Of a stretch of DNA of 64,000 nt, positions 3,254-14,589 are shown piece after piece. The position numbers were made by a program, and so were the translations under genes. The notes under the pieces were generated by a model. The model did not search any database and was not told where the DNA came from. It saw only the letters and a list, made by a program, of their open reading frames with translations. The stretch covers positions 1,046,001 through 1,110,000 of the forward strand of contig NZ_OY782498.1 of assembly GCF_963677845.1 (NCBI RefSeq), written 5' to 3'. Each line of letters opens with the position of its first letter. Position 1 is the first letter of the stretch. The stretch is from an uncultured Pseudodesulfovibrio sp. (GTDB taxonomy: Bacteria; Desulfobacterota; Desulfovibrionia; Desulfovibrionales; Desulfovibrionaceae).

Positions 3254-4627
3254 ATGTTACTTAGACACACACCAGAAGAAGTTGCTGACCGTAAGGCCCT
3301 GATGATTAATCCGGCCAAGACGTGTCAGCCCATCGGCGCCATGTATGCGGCCCTTGGCATCAAGGGATGCCTTCCACACAGCCACGGGTCCCAGGGGTGT
3401 TGCGCCTACCATCGCTCCACTCTGACCCGGCACTACAAGGAGCCCATTTCCGCTGCAACCAGTTCCTTCACTGAAGGTGCATCCGTGTTCGGCGGTCAGG
3501 CCAACCTCGTGCAGGCCCTTAACAATATCTTCACGGTTTACGATCCGGATGTTGTTGCCGTGCATACCACCTGTTTGTCCGAGACTATCGGTGATGATTT
3601 GAATCAGATTCGAGACAAGGCGATCAAGGATGGCAAGGTTCCAGAAGGCAAGACCATTATTGGCGCACCGACTCCGAGCTACGTTGGCTCGCACGTTACT
3701 GGTTTCTCCAACATGGTGAAAGCCATGGCGCAGTTGGCCGAACCGTCCGGTACCAAGTCCGGCAAGGTCAACGTTATCCCCGGCTGGGTCGAACCCGCCG
3801 ACATGGCCGAGATCAGACGTCTGGCTGAGCTGGTCGGTGTGGAGATCACTCTGTTCCCGGATACCTCAGGCGTGCTGGATGCGCCTTTGACCGGCGAATA
3901 CTCCATGTTTCCCGATGGTGGTGTGACTATTCCCGAGCTTAAGGCGGCTGGTGATGCCATCGGAACCCTCGCTCTTGGCGAATGGTGTTCCGCTGACGCT
4001 GCCCGTTGGCTGGACGCCAAGAGCAAGGTGCCGTGCACCGTGCTGGACATGCCGTTCGGCCTGGCTGCCACTGACCGCTTTATCGATGTGTTGCGTACCG
4101 TCGCCGGTGTCTCTGTTCCCGACTCCGTGGCTGTCGAGCGCGGACAGCTCGTGGACCTGATTTCGGATATGCACCAGTACTTCTACGGCAAGCGTGTGGC
4201 CATTTGGGGTGACCCTGATCAGCTTATTTCCATGACTGAATTCTTGGTGTCACTCGATATGCAGCCTGTCTATGTCGTCACAGGTACTCCGGGCAAGAAA
4301 TTCGAGAAGCGTATTCAGGAAATATGCGAAGGGCAGCCCTTCGAGGTCAAGGTCAAGGCAAAGGGCGACATGTTCCTGCTTCATCAGTGGATCAAGAATG
4401 AATCAGTCGATCTGCTCATCGGCAATACATACGGCAAGTACATCGCTCGTGATGAAGACATCCCATTCATGCGGTGGGGCTTCCCCATCCTTGATCGTCA
4501 GGGACATCAGTACTTCCCGACAGTCGGTTACAAGGGCGGACTCCGTCTGCTTGAAAAGATGTTGAACCTTTTTCTTGATCGTAAAGACCGTGACGATCCG
4601 GAACAAACCTTTGAACTCGTCTTGTAG
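3254..4627 (+). CDS. nifK: Nitrogenase MoFe protein beta chain
   Basis: This is the beta subunit of the MoFe protein. P-cluster cysteines are C24 (KTCQPIGAMYA), C49 (SHGSQGCCAYHRS) and C107 (HTTCLSETIGDD). The protein has 457 residues, against about 520 in Azotobacter; the missing part is the N-terminal extension, which is also short in the anaerobe-type NifK. The ATG follows an AGGGAG ribosome site. The gene pairs with nifD immediately upstream. A GC-rich hairpin lies just after the stop, so expression of the downstream cofactor genes may be lower than that of the structural genes. Confidence 0.98.
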   Translation: MLLRHTPEEVADRKALMINPAKTCQPIGAMYAALGIKGCLPHSHGSQGCCAYHRSTLTRHYKEPISAATSSFTEGASVFGGQANLVQALNNIFTVYDPDVVAVHTTCLSETIGDDLNQIRDKAIKDGKVPEGKTIIGAPTPSYVGSHVTGFSNMVKAMAQLAEPSGTKSGKVNVIPGWVEPADMAEIRRLAELVGVEITLFPDTSGVLDAPLTGEYSMFPDGGVTIPELKAAGDAIGTLALGEWCSADAARWLDAKSKVPCTVLDMPFGLAATDRFIDVLRTVAGVSVPDSVAVERGQLVDLISDMHQYFYGKRVAIWGDPDQLISMTEFLVSLDMQPVYVVTGTPGKKFEKRIQEICEGQPFEVKVKAKGDMFLLHQWIKNESVDLLIGNTYGKYIARDEDIPFMRWGFPILDRQGHQYFPTVGYKGGLRLLEKMLNLFLDRKDRDDPEQTFELVL

Positions 4628-4643
4628 TTCGTCATTCCAAGCT

Positions 4644-4672
4644 CCGGACGGAGGTCCTTTCCCTCCGTCCGG
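4644..4672 (+). terminator. GC-rich hairpin after nifK (weak or partial terminator)
   Basis: An 11-bp perfect stem (CCGGACGGAGG / CCTCCGTCCGG) closes a 7-base loop, 16 bases after the nifK stop. Only a poor T tract (CTGTTTA) follows, so it probably attenuates transcription or protects the nifHDK 3' end rather than stopping transcription completely. No sigma-54 -24/-12 element was found between it and the next gene at 4758, which makes read-through the likely source of downstream expression. Confidence 0.6.
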
Positions 4673-4757
4673 GCTGTTTACAAGGGGATGATCAAAGGCG
4701 TTCGTTTTTTTGTGAACCGTTCGGAATTGTAAAAACCATTCAACGCAAAGGCCAGCC

Positions 4758-5927
4758 ATGGAAACGACTTTATCGTATGCAAATCATCCTTGTTTTGGAT
4801 TCTCCGCCCGGAAAAAAGTCGGTCGGATTCATCTTCCCGTTGCTCCTCGGGCCAATGCTCGTATCAAGTTTGCGAGCATGAAAAAGGCTGCTTCGGCGAT
4901 TATGCCTGCCGACGCGTTGAATATGTTGACCCGGACAATTGAGGCCGGGAATCCGGTTGGAGTCGTTGGGATTACCGGTCCGGGCGATCCTTTGGCCGTG
5001 CCGGAATATACGTTGGAAACATTGCGTCTGGTCCGTGAAAAGTACCCGGATATGCCTTTGTGCATGACCTCGATCGGTATAGGCGGGGCCGAACATGCTG
5101 AGGAATTGGCTGAAATTGGCCTTTTACATGTGACTATACTTGTCGATGCCGTGGACCCGAAAGTGGCGGAACAACTGTATGCATGGGTTCGTCCTTCAAC
5201 ACGAACAATGCCAATTTCTGAGGCCGTGGAAATTCTTTTGAATGAACAGGCCAAGACGATTGTTGCGCTGAAAAATGCAGGCCTCACCGTCAAAATTAAC
5301 ACCACTGTTTTTCCTGGATACAACGCTGGTCACGTGGAGGATGTTGCTGCTGCCGTGGCCTCATTGGACGCGGATATCATGGCCATTGTCCCGTGTGATT
5401 TTGAGGTGGAGTCCGACGATGCCCTGGTCAAGCCGGACATGGCGTTGATGGCGACGGCGTGTGATCGAGCAGCCCGGCATATGAACCTCGTGCCCTTTTG
5501 GAATTATTGCGGTGAGAAGATTGTCGGTCTCAGAGGGCCGGGAGAGATGGGGCAGCCTTCAGAAATTATGCCTATGCCGACTTCGGAGCGGCCCAACGTG
5601 GCTGTTGTCAGTTCCAATGGGATGGAGGTGGATATGCATTTGGGCCATGCCGCTACATTACTTATTTATGGTCCACGCGAGGATGGTCTGGCCTGCCTGT
5701 TGGAAACGCGTCAGGCCCCGGCCCCCGGAACAGGTTCCTCTCGTTGGGTAAAAATGGCGGCATTGCTTGATGATTGCTTTGCGCTGATGACTTCGAATGC
5801 GGGAGAGCGTCCAAGGGAAATTTTAAGTGGCCTCGGCTTACCAGTTCTTATCACTGACGGCGAGGTAGAAGGGACCGTGGATGTCTTGTTTGGTGGTGGT
5901 AAGAAAAAAGGCAAGTGTCTTAAATAG
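4758..5927 (+). CDS. NifB-like protein with all radical-SAM cysteines lost, plus C-terminal NifX-like domain
   Basis: This 389-residue protein is clearly a paralogue of the NifB encoded at 9539. Shared features are the N-terminal HPCF motif (residues 10-13), the HLPVAP stretch, GITGPGDP (SAM-binding region in NifB), AVDPKVAEQLYAWV, and a C-terminal NifX-type domain from about residue 270 (MEVDMHLGHAA, ETRQAPAPGTGSSRW). However, the CxxxCxxC loop that holds the radical-SAM [4Fe-4S] cluster is replaced: C31, C35, C38 and C44 of NifB align with A32, I36, A39 and A45. The conserved ESRPG segment that follows is deleted. Of the later CxxC pair in NifB (CKRCRAD) only the second Cys remains (NYCGEK), while HPCF and the Cys in PLCMTS stay. 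The frame is intact and long, so this looks like a maintained protein rather than a pseudogene. It cannot be a normal radical-SAM enzyme. A cluster carrier, NifX/NafY-like chaperone or NifB partner are inferred options. Confidence 0.88.
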   Translation: METTLSYANHPCFGFSARKKVGRIHLPVAPRANARIKFASMKKAASAIMPADALNMLTRTIEAGNPVGVVGITGPGDPLAVPEYTLETLRLVREKYPDMPLCMTSIGIGGAEHAEELAEIGLLHVTILVDAVDPKVAEQLYAWVRPSTRTMPISEAVEILLNEQAKTIVALKNAGLTVKINTTVFPGYNAGHVEDVAAAVASLDADIMAIVPCDFEVESDDALVKPDMALMATACDRAARHMNLVPFWNYCGEKIVGLRGPGEMGQPSEIMPMPTSERPNVAVVSSNGMEVDMHLGHAATLLIYGPREDGLACLLETRQAPAPGTGSSRWVKMAALLDDCFALMTSNAGERPREILSGLGLPVLITDGEVEGTVDVLFGGGKKKGKCLK

Positions 5928-5953: not shown

Positions 5954-6256
5954 ATGGCTGTACCCGAGAGAATGATAATTTGTTGTCAGAGTTTCCGTGC
6001 TGCAGGTGATCCCAAAGGCATTTGCCACAAGCAGACCGACGGGTTCCTTCAGTACATAGAGGAAGAGATTCTGGATCGAGGTCTTGATGCGTTGGTTGTT
6101 GCTTCTTCCTGTCTTAAGCAATGTGAATCCGGCCCAATCATGGTCGTTCAGCCTGAGAACTGGTGGTTCAAGGGTGTTGATTCCGAAGAGGCCATTGATG
6201 AAATCCTTGATGCCCTCGAAGACGGGGAAGCCTGTGCTGAATACTTGGCTGCTTAA
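5954..6256 (+). CDS. Thioredoxin-like [2Fe-2S] ferredoxin
   Basis: This is a 100-residue (2Fe-2S) ferredoxin of the thioredoxin-fold type known from Clostridium pasteurianum and Azotobacter. The ligand pattern fits: Cys11 and Cys24 near the N-terminus, then C53-x3-C57 (SSCLKQCESGP); Cys10 is an extra neighbour. The clostridial protein is reported to bind the MoFe protein specifically, and the gene's place between nifK and nifE agrees with a role in nitrogenase electron transfer or protection. A strong AAGGAGAGAG ribosome site precedes the ATG. It is 26 bases after the NifB-like gene and 13 bases before the GNAT gene, so it is almost certainly co-transcribed. Confidence 0.9.
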   Translation: MAVPERMIICCQSFRAAGDPKGICHKQTDGFLQYIEEEILDRGLDALVVASSCLKQCESGPIMVVQPENWWFKGVDSEEAIDEILDALEDGEACAEYLAA

Positions 6257-6269
6257 CGAGGACAGACCA

Positions 6270-6725
6270 ATGCCCGAAGTCGTAATCGTTCGTCCTGCAT
6301 GCACAGAAGATCTTGATGGTTTGGTTTGTCTGCTCGAAATGTTGTTTTCCATTGAGGAAGATTTTGTCATCGATTCTGACAAACACCGGCGCGGTTTGGA
6401 TGTGATGTTGAACAACCGTCGGGGTTGCATCATGGCAGCAGAGGCGGCCAACGGGATTGTTGTTGGCATGTGTTCTGGACAGTTAACGGTTTCCACGGCT
6501 GAAGGCGGTCCTGCTGTGCTGATTGAGGATGTCATAGTCCACAAGGAGTGGCGTGGTCGGGGCATCGGCGCTTTATTGTTGGATTCCATTATGGCCTGGG
6601 GGTGGGAAAATGAAGCCTCTCGGCTTCAACTTCTGGCTGACAGAAAGAATGTCCCGGCCTTGGCTTTTTACAAACACCTTGGTTGGGAAACCACACAACT
6701 CACTTGTTTGAGAAAACAGCTGTAA
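6270..6725 (+). CDS. GNAT-family N-acetyltransferase in the nif operon
   Basis: This is a 151-residue GNAT acetyltransferase. The acetyl-CoA binding motif is seen as VHKEWRGRGIGALLLD (about residues 89-104), and the C-terminal YKHLGWE is the usual GNAT ending. The ATG at 6270 was chosen because the protein then starts directly at the conserved beta-1 (VVIVRPACTEDLDGL); the longer frame would overlap most of the ferredoxin gene. Substrate is unknown. Its position among nif genes is suggestive of modification of a nitrogenase component or of a small molecule, but nothing in the sequence names the substrate. Confidence 0.88.
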   Translation: MPEVVIVRPACTEDLDGLVCLLEMLFSIEEDFVIDSDKHRRGLDVMLNNRRGCIMAAEAANGIVVGMCSGQLTVSTAEGGPAVLIEDVIVHKEWRGRGIGALLLDSIMAWGWENEASRLQLLADRKNVPALAFYKHLGWETTQLTCLRKQL

Positions 6726-9506: not shown

Positions 9507-9538
9507 AAATTCACTCCATTATGAAAAGGAGCATCGAT

Positions 9539-10810
9539 ATGAGCGTCAAGGACATCTCCAAGCACCCCTGTTTCAACAAGGAGACTGCCGGAAGTTGCGG
9601 TCGTGTACATTTGCCTGTGGCTCCCAAGTGCAATATTCAATGTAACTATTGCAATCGTAAATATGATTGTGTGAATGAGTCCCGTCCTGGTGTGACCAGT
9701 GGAGTCCTCAAACCGTATCAGGCCGCTGAGTATATGGAGAAGGTGCTTGAAAAGGAACCGCGCATTACCGTGGCTGGTATAGCCGGTCCCGGCGACCCGT
9801 TTGCCAATCCGATAGAAACCATAGAGACCATGCGTCTGTTGAATGAAAAATATCCGCACCTGCTGTTTTGTCTATCGAGCAACGGTATGGGCATACTGCC
9901 GTATCTGGATGATATTGCCGAATTGGGGGTGTCTCATGTCACCATCACCATTTCTGCCGTTGATCCGAAAATCGGCGCAAAGATTTATGCATGGGTCAAG
10001 GACGGCAACGTTGTCTACCACGGGGAGAAGGGGGCGGAAATTCTTCTTCATCGTCAGATTGCAGCGATTAAGGGGCTCAAGGAGCGTGGCATTGTGGTCA
10101 AGGTCAACTCCATCATTATTCCCGGTGTCAATGATGAGCATGTTGTTGAAGTTGCCAAGGTTGTCTCAGCGTTGGGTGCTGACATCCAGAATATGATTCC
10201 CATTAAGCCTACGGCAGACACGCCATTTGCCGGAGTAATTGAACCGGGACGTGAGACCGTTGGCCCTTTGCGCAAGGACGCAGGCGAGTTCATTGAACAG
10301 ATGACACATTGTAAACGTTGTCGTGCCGATGCTGTTGGATTGCTCGGTGATGACAAATCCGCTTCATTGTGCGGGACGCTCAAGGCGTGCTCCAAGCTCA
10401 AACCGCTTGAAGTCAAAATGGCGCGTCCATACGTGGCGGTTGCTACTCGTGAGGGGATGCTTGTTAATCAGCATCTCGGCGAAGCAAAAGCCTTTCAGAT
10501 TTGGGCAGAGTCCGACGCAGGTGGTTTTCGCATGGTCGAAGAACGTCAGGCTCCCAACGTCGGATGTGGTCCCCAACGGTGGGCAGATTTGGCCGAATTG
10601 CTCCGTGATTGTCGGGCTGTCTTGGCGGTTGCCATCGGTGAGACTTCACAAATGCTTTTGGAAGAGCATGGTATCAAAACGCATGTGGTAGATGGTTTTA
10701 TAGAGGACGCATTGCGATTTGTTTTTGAAGGTGGGGATCTCAATGCCCTGAAGGTTCGGCGAAGTGGCATAGGCAGCGCATGTGCCGGTGGAGGCGTTGG
10801 GTGCGGATAA
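9539..10810 (+). CDS. nifB: FeMo-cofactor biosynthesis radical-SAM protein NifB
   Basis: NifB fuses two [4Fe-4S] clusters and inserts carbide and sulfur to make NifB-co. The 423-residue protein has HPCF (residues 9-12, cluster ligand region), the radical-SAM loop C31-x3-C35-x2-C38, NESRPGV, GIAGPGDP, and CKRCRADAVGLLGDD. A C-terminal NifX-like domain starts near residue 290 (VAVATREGMLVNQHLGEA). It ends in a Gly/Cys tail (ACAGGGVGCG). The ATG at 9539 was preferred over 9521 because AAAAGGAG sits 7 bases before it. It is the intact counterpart of the cysteine-less paralogue at 4758. Confidence 0.97.
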   Translation: MSVKDISKHPCFNKETAGSCGRVHLPVAPKCNIQCNYCNRKYDCVNESRPGVTSGVLKPYQAAEYMEKVLEKEPRITVAGIAGPGDPFANPIETIETMRLLNEKYPHLLFCLSSNGMGILPYLDDIAELGVSHVTITISAVDPKIGAKIYAWVKDGNVVYHGEKGAEILLHRQIAAIKGLKERGIVVKVNSIIIPGVNDEHVVEVAKVVSALGADIQNMIPIKPTADTPFAGVIEPGRETVGPLRKDAGEFIEQMTHCKRCRADAVGLLGDDKSASLCGTLKACSKLKPLEVKMARPYVAVATREGMLVNQHLGEAKAFQIWAESDAGGFRMVEERQAPNVGCGPQRWADLAELLRDCRAVLAVAIGETSQMLLEEHGIKTHVVDGFIEDALRFVFEGGDLNALKVRRSGIGSACAGGGVGCG

Positions 10811-12483: not shown

Positions 12484-12494
12484 ACTTCGACAAA

Positions 12495-12510
12495 GCAAGC
12501 ATGGTGCCAA
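12495..12510 (-). promoter_or_regulatory. Sigma-54 (-24/-12) promoter of nifA
   Basis: On the minus strand TTGGCAC-CATGC-TTGC matches the sigma-54 consensus YTGGCAC-N5-TTGC, with exactly 10 bases between GG (12508-12507) and GC (12496-12495). Counting 12 bases from GC puts +1 at 12483, which is the A of the first in-frame nifA ATG. The message would then be leaderless, or translation starts at a later codon such as the TTG at 12462. Confidence 0.72.
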
Positions 12511-13531: not shown

Positions 13532-14278
13532 ATGATGACAAGAATTATTTCAATAATTAATCAAAAAGGTGGAGTAGGTAAAACGACTATCGCGCTTAAC
13601 ATGGCGCATGGTTTTGTGCGTGAAGGTAAAAAAGTTCTTGCAGTCGACAATGATCCACAGGGTAATTTAACAAATTCATTGTTGATCAATGAAGAGATTA
13701 GATGTTTTTCGGCAAGTTTGTATAATGGTAAAGTGAATAAATTACAATCGGTCAATGGCCATATGGGGATTATGGCCGGGGACTCTAAATTAGAGATAGT
13801 TCAATATAACGAACAAAGTCCTTTGAGATTTTCATCTGTATTAACAAAGATTAAACAGAAGCATATATTCGATTATATTTTGATAGATAGTAGCCCTCAA
13901 ATAACAAATTTGACCTTTGCGAGTATTATGGCTGCAGACAATTTGCTTTTCCCGTTGCAGCCATCAAAGTTCGGCTTAGATGGTCTTAAAAAAGTGCTTA
14001 TGGCGGTTGCCAAAATGAAATCTACCGGGGCGACAAAAGCGGCTGTTCTGGGGGTTGTAATGAATTTAGTGAATCGGACAAAGTTGCATAGACAGACAAT
14101 CTTGGCACTGAAGAAGCGATATCCTCGCGACGTAATGGATTGCGTCATACACAGGCGAACAGCGTACGAAGAGTCGCCAATTAAGGGCCAAAGTATTTGG
14201 GAATATGGGAAAGATGAACGAGCTCAGATTGAGATGAGTGCGTTTATGCGTGAAATTTTGAAGAGGTTGGAGGATTAG
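13532..14278 (+). CDS. ParA-family partition ATPase (small, type Ib-like)
   Basis: This 248-residue ParA/Soj-type ATPase has a deviant Walker A KGGVGKTT at residues 12-19, DNDPQGN (about 40-46) and DYILIDSSP (about 113-121). It lacks the N-terminal HTH domain of P1-type ParA, so it resembles type Ib proteins that work with a small ribbon-helix-helix partner. Exactly such a gene follows 2 bases after its stop. Codon use is AT-rich compared with the nif genes, a sign of horizontal origin. It could stabilise a plasmid or an integrative element; no replication gene is visible. Confidence 0.85.
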   Translation: MMTRIISIINQKGGVGKTTIALNMAHGFVREGKKVLAVDNDPQGNLTNSLLINEEIRCFSASLYNGKVNKLQSVNGHMGIMAGDSKLEIVQYNEQSPLRFSSVLTKIKQKHIFDYILIDSSPQITNLTFASIMAADNLLFPLQPSKFGLDGLKKVLMAVAKMKSTGATKAAVLGVVMNLVNRTKLHRQTILALKKRYPRDVMDCVIHRRTAYEESPIKGQSIWEYGKDERAQIEMSAFMREILKRLED

Positions 14279-14280
14279 TT

Positions 14281-14589
14281 GTGACAAATGATGGGAAAGA
14301 TTTTATTGATGATATTAATCTGGATTTGGATTTGGATAGGGTAGAGAGTGTGGCTGATTGTGGTTGTCTTATCATTGCGAAGTCTATGCCTAGAGATTTA
14401 AAGGAGCAGCATAGAGCTGCGAAAAAGGTTGAGCGTGGTCCTTTAAAAAATCAGACATACACGATTCCTGAAATGGTTATTGAAGAATTGAGACAATATG
14501 TACTGGCAAAAAAGATGGCTGGCGATAAAATTAATGCAAGTAGGGTGGTCGTCGAAGGAATAAAGCTATATTTGCAGAAATATACCTAA
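14281..14589 (+). CDS. Small ribbon-helix-helix-like partner of ParA
   Basis: This is a 102-residue protein starting at GTG with GGAGG 7 bases upstream inside the end of parA. The N-terminus is acidic (DDINLDLDLDRVES). The C-terminal half (QTYTIPEMVIEELRQYV, then INASRVVVEGIKLYLQKY) has the strand-helix-helix pattern of ParG/Omega/CopG proteins. With the upstream ParA it forms a likely type Ib partition pair. The family is inferred from pattern and position rather than from clear identity. Confidence 0.65.
   Translation: MTNDGKDFIDDINLDLDLDRVESVADCGCLIIAKSMPRDLKEQHRAAKKVERGPLKNQTYTIPEMVIEELRQYVLAKKMAGDKINASRVVVEGIKLYLQKYT

Follow-up and report, generated by a model that had tools for sequence, protein, structure and literature searches.

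A NifB paralogue without the radical-SAM cysteine triad follows nifK in many sulfate-reducing bacteria and is probably a repurposed nitrogenase helper

Most of what is known about the traffic of nitrogenase cofactors between the proteins that make them and NifDK comes from NifX and NafY of Azotobacter. In both Klebsiella and Azotobacter, nifY lies downstream of nifK, as does the gene described here. According to PMC8496260, NafY binds apo-NifDK through its N-terminal domain, and its key FeMo-co ligand is His121, the HFG histidine of core-NafY (structure 1p90). For NifX, His35 is reported to hold NifB-co during hand-over to NifEN (PMC13128457), while the NifX-like domain of Klebsiella NifB is described as not essential (PMC5715403). 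In the NifB of M. acetivorans, Cys30, Cys63, and Cys129 (PMC6053413) and His43 (PMC7145814) have been assigned to the K1 cluster. In one NifB structure, K1 is held by C29, C128, H42, and E65, and the SAM cluster is capped by C62, with C62 and E65 on a single flexible loop (PMC9692996).

Unusual NifB relatives have been reported before. NifB3 and NifB4 of Paenibacillus, as described in PMC8287671, are extra copies that do not support Mo-nitrogenase, are nonessential for nitrogen fixation, and are possibly pseudogenes; they can be likened to the present protein but, unlike it, reportedly keep the CX3CX2C motif. A 2017 survey set aside 28% of 390 putative NifB sequences because motifs, mostly CX3CX2C, were missing, and judged them to be NifX (PMC5715403); the discarded sequences may have included the present family. 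A Pseudodesulfovibrio nif cluster has been listed with both a nifB_1 and a nifB_2 (PMC11505543), one of which we infer to belong to this family. We found no published description of the family in the open-licence literature, which mostly excludes subscription journals.

Comparison with NifB

We analyzed a 64,000-nt stretch of Pseudodesulfovibrio DNA (the window), and all coordinates are positions within it. The window contains a compact nif cluster in the order nifH, two P-II genes, nifD, nifK, T, fdx, a GNAT gene, nifE, nifN, and nifB, where T denotes a NifB paralogue without the radical-SAM cysteine triad. We assigned the nifHDKEN names from sequence. The window edge truncates nifH, whose reading frame enters from base 2, and a nifA-type gene (524.9 bits against the NifA model, cut-off 528.85) is convergent to the cluster. 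The features are as follows.

3254..4627, + strand: nifK, directly upstream of T (sequence and gene order)
4758..5927, + strand: T, NifB paralogue of 389 aa (ORF with ATG start and no internal stop; NifB comparison)
4758..5567, + strand: degenerate radical-SAM barrel of T, residues ~1-270 (Pfam Radical_SAM at residues 55-197, the motif end of the profile being absent)
4791..4793, + strand: Cys12 of HPCF, counterpart of a NifB K1 ligand (alignment and published NifB work)
4830..4832, + strand: His25 of HLPVAP, counterpart of the NifB K1 histidine, His43 in M. acetivorans (motif position)
4851..4874, + strand: sites of the lost CX3CX2C triad (A32, I36, A39), with the next loop of NifB deleted (alignment)
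5061..5063, + strand: Cys102, counterpart of a NifB K1 ligand (alignment and published NifB work)
5508..5510, + strand: Cys251, second cysteine of the former CxxC, the first being Trp248 (alignment)
5619..5870, + strand: NifX-like domain (Nitro_FeMo-Co, PF02579), residues 288-371 (Pfam match, profile search)
5637..5639, + strand: His294 of HLG, aligned with NifX His35 and NafY His121 (in 75 of 75 readable T copies)
5775..5777, + strand: Cys340 (in 75 of 75 readable T copies and also in 41 of 41 triad-bearing rows)
5954..6256, + strand: [2Fe-2S] ferredoxin gene (fdx), constant downstream neighbor of T (model match, gene order)
6270..6725, + strand: GNAT acetyltransferase gene, frequent but not constant neighbor of T (Pfam match, gene order)
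9521..10810, + strand: NifB of the cluster itself, triad and CxxC intact (ORF, model match, alignment)

BLASTP aligned T with this NifB at 33% identity over 393 positions, spanning both domains (E = 9e-75), and a protein search with T across the complete genome (3.70 Mb) found only two matching places, T itself and nifB (E <= 0.001). T also matched NifB structures (E ~1e-36) and the Pfam families Radical_SAM and Nitro_FeMo-Co. Against the NifB model TIGR01290, it scored 162.6 bits versus a curated cut-off of 343.65, and all 51 aligned T members matched that model at E <= 0.001. The original prediction of a full-length frame collinear with NifB, beside an intact nifB in the same cluster, was thereby borne out.

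Compared with the two-domain bacterial NifB that TIGR01290 describes, T is collinear over both domains and retains HPC, HLPVAP, GPGDP, and one CxxC cysteine, but it lacks CX3CX2C, the ExRP loop, and CxxCRxDAxG, and its TxTxN is altered. All four cysteines of the radical-SAM loop region had been predicted to be substituted. Alignment agreed for the triad positions (A32, I36, and A39) but not for A45, because that cysteine sits in a stretch that is gapped in T. The gap comprises the DCVNESRPG loop of NifB with its ExRP motif, so the predicted deletion of ESRPG stands, as do the loss of one CxxC cysteine (to Trp248) and the presence of HPCF (residues 10-13), HLPVAP, GPGDP, C102, and AVDPK. A functional triad shifted elsewhere would have spoken against the prediction. 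None exists in the window T, given where its eight cysteines lie (12, 102, 213, 235, 251, 313, 340, and 387), and a search of 51 aligned T rows for loose three-cysteine patterns found just one, in the L038 row and outside the triad site. Using the motif list of PMC5715403, we read TGPG in T for AGPG, TILVD for TxTxN (46 of 51 rows have Leu in place of the second Thr), and WNYCGEKIVG for Cx2CRxDAxG, the last two motifs being absent. The cluster's own NifB also deviates at the last place of TxTxN, where it reads TITIS.

Several other observations concern the surroundings of T. The nifK-T gap contains a strong hairpin (4640-4675; the segment 4625-4757 folds at -48.9 kcal/mol, z = -3.9), and a perfect inverted repeat of 7 to 15 bases, varying in sequence, occurs in this gap in 37 of 49 measured T loci (relatives were counted without a shuffle control). 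Such a hairpin may make nifHDK mRNA more stable or reduce expression of the genes downstream. When the window was scanned for the sigma-54 pattern, 39 matches appeared versus 36 expected, none of them inside the nifK-T gap; an exact match (TGGCAC-N5-TTGCW) occupies 12494-12509 of the minus strand, where the nifA frame starts. A ParA-type gene and a small gene occupy 13532-14589, near this chromosomal nif cluster, and N. vulgaris L2 carries both its nif cluster and a ParA gene on a plasmid.

Distribution and ancestry of the nifK-T-fdx slot

To sample homologues, we searched 199 genomes of the window's family and then fetched 40 further stretches. Merging identical ORFs left 51 distinct T proteins without the triad, two of them encoded on named contigs (an uncultured Desulfocapsa and a MAG labeled "Deltaproteobacteria bacterium"). 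It also left 41 distinct ORFs that carry CX3CX2C, and two of these are second NifB-like copies in the slot of T (G015 and G055). Among the matches listed when 395 genomes of the phylum were searched, there were 30 loci, or 28 once the locus of the window and L075 were set aside; L075 repeats L040 from the same genome and was also dropped before tree building. Fourteen of the 28, among the matches listed, have a copy without the triad, preceded by nifK and followed by fdx, and the other 14 hold NifB; L089 and L091 to L103 turned out to be NifB. The 14 T loci represent at least 13 genomes of at least five other families (f15, f16, f64, f77, and f102) together with G061 of the window's family. 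Counts outside this family are lower bounds, since T is undercounted there (G549, for example, falls outside the count). A later reading of clusters added 11 copies. In the resulting alignment of 76 T copies, from at least six families of the phylum and two MAG contigs, the triad occurs in none. One scan of genome contigs gave the two relatives from named contigs, and viral contigs gave none; 243 plasmid records match, all at less than 60% identity. A Nitratidesulfovibrio vulgaris plasmid match (L074) was rejected as a T: it is a nifB at the end of a nif cluster without T.

The position of the gene is nearly invariant. T lies between nifK and fdx in 75 of the 76 copies, and the contig of the remaining one (G124) ends inside T. 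This arrangement was found in the window, in all 29 narrow family loci and all 39 wide T loci (18 genomes are in both sets), in 14 of 14 T loci among the matches listed in the phylum search, and in 10 of the 11 later loci, the eleventh being G124. In L050 and L051 a triad-bearing copy occupies the slot, and L073 is a separate E-N-B stretch. Within the window's family, nifD was found in 117 of the 199 genomes, and the slot could be read in 107 of them, the other ten being unread or broken off. By our tally, 61 slots contain T (one cut by a contig end), one (G136) has a weak T-like match of 17 bits at a contig end, four (G010, G015, G051, and G055) are taken by a NifB-like copy that has the triad, 31 are flanked by nifK and fdx but lack T, and ten lie in another type of cluster, which has a long N-B reading frame and gives no match to fdx. 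T is therefore common in the family, not universal.

None of the 199 family genomes had a match over the cut-off of the NifX model TIGR02663, a result that comes without a positive control, as the 14 control genomes also gave none. Together with the 31 slots that lack T, this suggests that neither T nor a clear NifX is required for nitrogen fixation there. Since genomes without T also lack a NifX over the cut-off, the NifX-like domain of NifB itself may suffice in them. Near-threshold NifX matches (94 and 96 bits versus 112) were seen in a second nif cluster of two T-less genomes, G106 (G106:C28, L133) and G174 (G174:C28, L153).

Our computations support a single clade of T derived from NifB. 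In a tree of 120 proteins rooted on NifB, the 65 T rows formed one clade (support 98/88). Its sister group consists of the two copies with the triad from G015 and G055, and T plus this pair had support of 100/100; some T branches are long, and the tree program warned of possibly false joins. Copies from other families nest within the T clade, which suggests that T was transferred with the cluster. On a NifD tree of 97 clusters, the presence of T required six changes, which fits one gain and several losses, although such a count is blind to gain versus loss. The triad-bearing slot copies of G010, G015, G051, and G055, of which G010 and G051 were not in the tree, share the place of T between nifK and fdx, and all four keep His294, R318, R329, and W330. 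Unlike T, they keep the triad, and they have no cysteine at either K1 cysteine position. Their pattern of loss differs from that of T (L050 7026-8252, L051 5183-6409, L106 5000-6361, and L117 3156-4520).

Two further features were seen among T loci. A Cys-rich insert separates the barrel from the NifX-like domain in the T of L131 (5166-6605), L140 (5017-6378), L143 (3175-4623), L151 (3219-4604), L154 (4883-6268), and L157 (3096-4445). In G189, nifK and nifE are split over several frames (L157 1742-3043 and 4756-6352) beside an intact T, which reflects either draft-assembly error or decay.

A putative cofactor escort and the alternatives

Certain residues of the C-terminal domain are fixed across T. 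PF02579 was matched by all 51 T members and Radical_SAM by 50 of them (both at E <= 0.01), and His294, Arg318, Arg329, Trp330, and Cys340 are present in all 75 copies that reach the C-terminal domain. Because the NifB barrel is kept, the family is not simply NifX; the window T was not listed by TIGR02663 at E <= 1, and 9 of the 51 members matched that model at E <= 0.001. A profile of the C-terminal domain built from 22 of the 51 copies found the NafY core (1p90, E = 5e-7) and NifX (9ian, E = 3e-5) as its best solved relatives, with His294 aligned to the HFG histidine of both; as a single sequence, the domain reached NifX at E = 0.03. Like NafY/NifY, T has two domains with a C-terminal Nitro_FeMo-Co core. 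However, its N-terminal half is a radical-SAM-type barrel and not the NafY N-domain, which Pfam listed in none of the 51 members. Compared with NifX, T is about 2.5 times as long and has in addition the barrel and a basic C-terminal tail.

The alignment of His294 with the published cofactor-ligand histidines of NafY and NifX leads us to propose, with slightly more confidence than doubt, that T is a catalytically dead NifB paralogue turned nitrogenase-cofactor escort protein, with the barrel as its docking half. The NifX-like domain would bind NifB-co or finished FeMo-co through His294. The former SAM barrel would be the protein-binding half, comparable to NafY with its apo-NifDK-binding N-domain and cofactor-binding core. 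In the likelier version, T would deliver cofactor to apo-NifDK or stabilize it; in a second version, it would carry out a NifX-like hand-over from NifB to NifEN. NifDK is favored as the target because T accompanies nifK in every cluster read, even in G016 and G037, where nifB is distant, yet this is the weakest step of the model. The comparison of partner distances was weak (best partial r = 0.19, for NifD over 35 loci). Furthermore, the same histidine is present in the NifX-like domain of intact NifB (41 of 41 triad-bearing rows), so its conservation could be structural. The fold of the carrier domain is predicted from sequence, because the only structure model, an AlphaFold2 run on the window T, the window NifB, L032, and L033, was poor (mean pLDDT 48.6). 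Of the functions originally suggested, action like that of NifX or NafY is best supported, given the invariant ligand histidine and the NafY core as best-scoring solved relative.

The original prediction had also suggested that T holds or hands over a K-type [4Fe-4S] cluster or NifB-co precursor, which would involve C12, H25, and C102. Judged by motif position, T has lost the SAM center and the flexible loop and has kept these three residues of the protein body. They correspond to the HPC cysteine, later cysteine, and histidine that bind K1 in NifB as described in PMC6053413, PMC7145814, and PMC9692996. The trio occurs together in 33 of 76 copies, and all 33 also have Cys251. However, these copies all belong to the window's own family, where the trio is retained in most of the window's clade; it is absent from 13 copies of other families, and the loop that bears the fourth K1 ligand is deleted. 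The count of Cys12 depends on the alignment (48 of 51 in the first and 46 of 76 in the full one). Divergent copies align with some uncertainty at the N-terminus. The suggestion thus stands insofar as the trio lies at the published K1 site, and it is weakened because a trio complete in only 33 of 76 copies cannot provide the shared function of T; as an account of the family, storage or hand-over of a K-type cluster is unlikely. The barrel in the window's clade may nonetheless carry an Fe-S cluster at the former K1 site. In a more elaborate and rather doubtful possibility for this clade, the radical-SAM half would be a docking and cluster-holding scaffold, T would link a metal site at the former K1 position to a second one at the NifX-type histidine, and a cofactor or precursor would go straight from T to NifDK without a separate NifX or NafY.

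Descended from NifB and similar to it in size, T might instead act on NifB as a pseudo-subunit that regulates or stabilizes it or takes its product. About 34 of the 39 wide T loci do have nifB in the same fetched stretch. Against this, in L053 (G016) and L072 (G037) T is found together with nifHDK, but nifB lies on another contig or ~390 kb away; L032 and L033 also show no nifB, but those stretches end within ~3 kb of T. NifB did not stand out in the distance comparison either (partial r = 0.02), and we regard such a partnership as quite improbable. There is less still to recommend the idea that T performs some SAM-dependent, nonradical, or otherwise unusual chemistry. G74 and P75 of the GPG(D/E)P stretch and W143, R145, and P146 of WxRP are invariant in the 51-row T alignment, and the same-slot copies of four genomes retain the triad, but all 76 T copies are without it and the two conserved motifs may simply hold the fold, which leaves this chemistry very improbable.

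Selection on T and its meaning

Purifying selection, which the original prediction had proposed as a check, was estimated with codon models in genera g38, g29, g7, and g1 (5, 5, 4, and 11 sequences, respectively). Omega was 0.143, 0.110, 0.135, and 0.141 for T and 0.049, 0.056, 0.052, and 0.057 for NifB; the larger groups have long trees, and saturation may affect their omega too. Pairwise counting at dS < 1.5 gave median dN/dS values of 0.50 for T (591 pairs) and 0.36 for NifB (557 pairs, second copies included), but many pairs were near saturation and maxima exceeded 1, so we relied on the codon models. Among the lowest-dS pairs, dN/dS was 0.19 to 0.44 for 14 T pairs (dS 0.11 to 0.33) and 0.05 to 0.25 for 14 NifB pairs (dS 0.15 to 0.31), one of which compares the two second copies. 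Frame-disrupted or neutrally evolving homologues, which would have told against a repurposed protein, were sought and not found. A decaying or neutral duplicate might be suspected from an omega two to three times that of NifB and from the 31 of 107 readable slots without T, but every copy examined is open, omega stays between 0.11 and 0.14, and one clade keeps a fixed gene order across at least six families, making this the least credible reading of all.

Selection is also distributed differently within the two proteins. We divided T at residue 270, a barrel boundary of our own choice. The ratio of codon-tree length between NifX-like domain and barrel was 1.7, 1.2, 2.2, and 2.4 for NifB in the four groups and 0.7, 0.5, 0.9, and 0.8 for T, although in one group omega of the T barrel is slightly below that of its NifX domain (0.098 versus 0.114). 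Constraint has shifted from the catalytic barrel toward the carrier domain, and no other computed result speaks as clearly for a changed function. The open frames, purifying selection, and single clade agree with the earlier description of T as a repurposed pseudo-enzyme.

Because it is maintained by selection, the triad-less NifB relative that follows nifK in many sulfate-reducing bacteria is probably a repurposed nitrogenase helper and not a dead gene. Recognizing the family corrects a filing habit by which such proteins are labeled NifB or radical-SAM, or are discarded as misannotated NifX. In the window's family, at least 61 genomes carry T and none of the 199 has a NifX over the cut-off. 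If T is an escort there, it would be a second, independent solution to cofactor delivery. It would also show the carrier function of NifB separated by nature from catalysis, and would be a candidate component when nitrogenase pathways are engineered.
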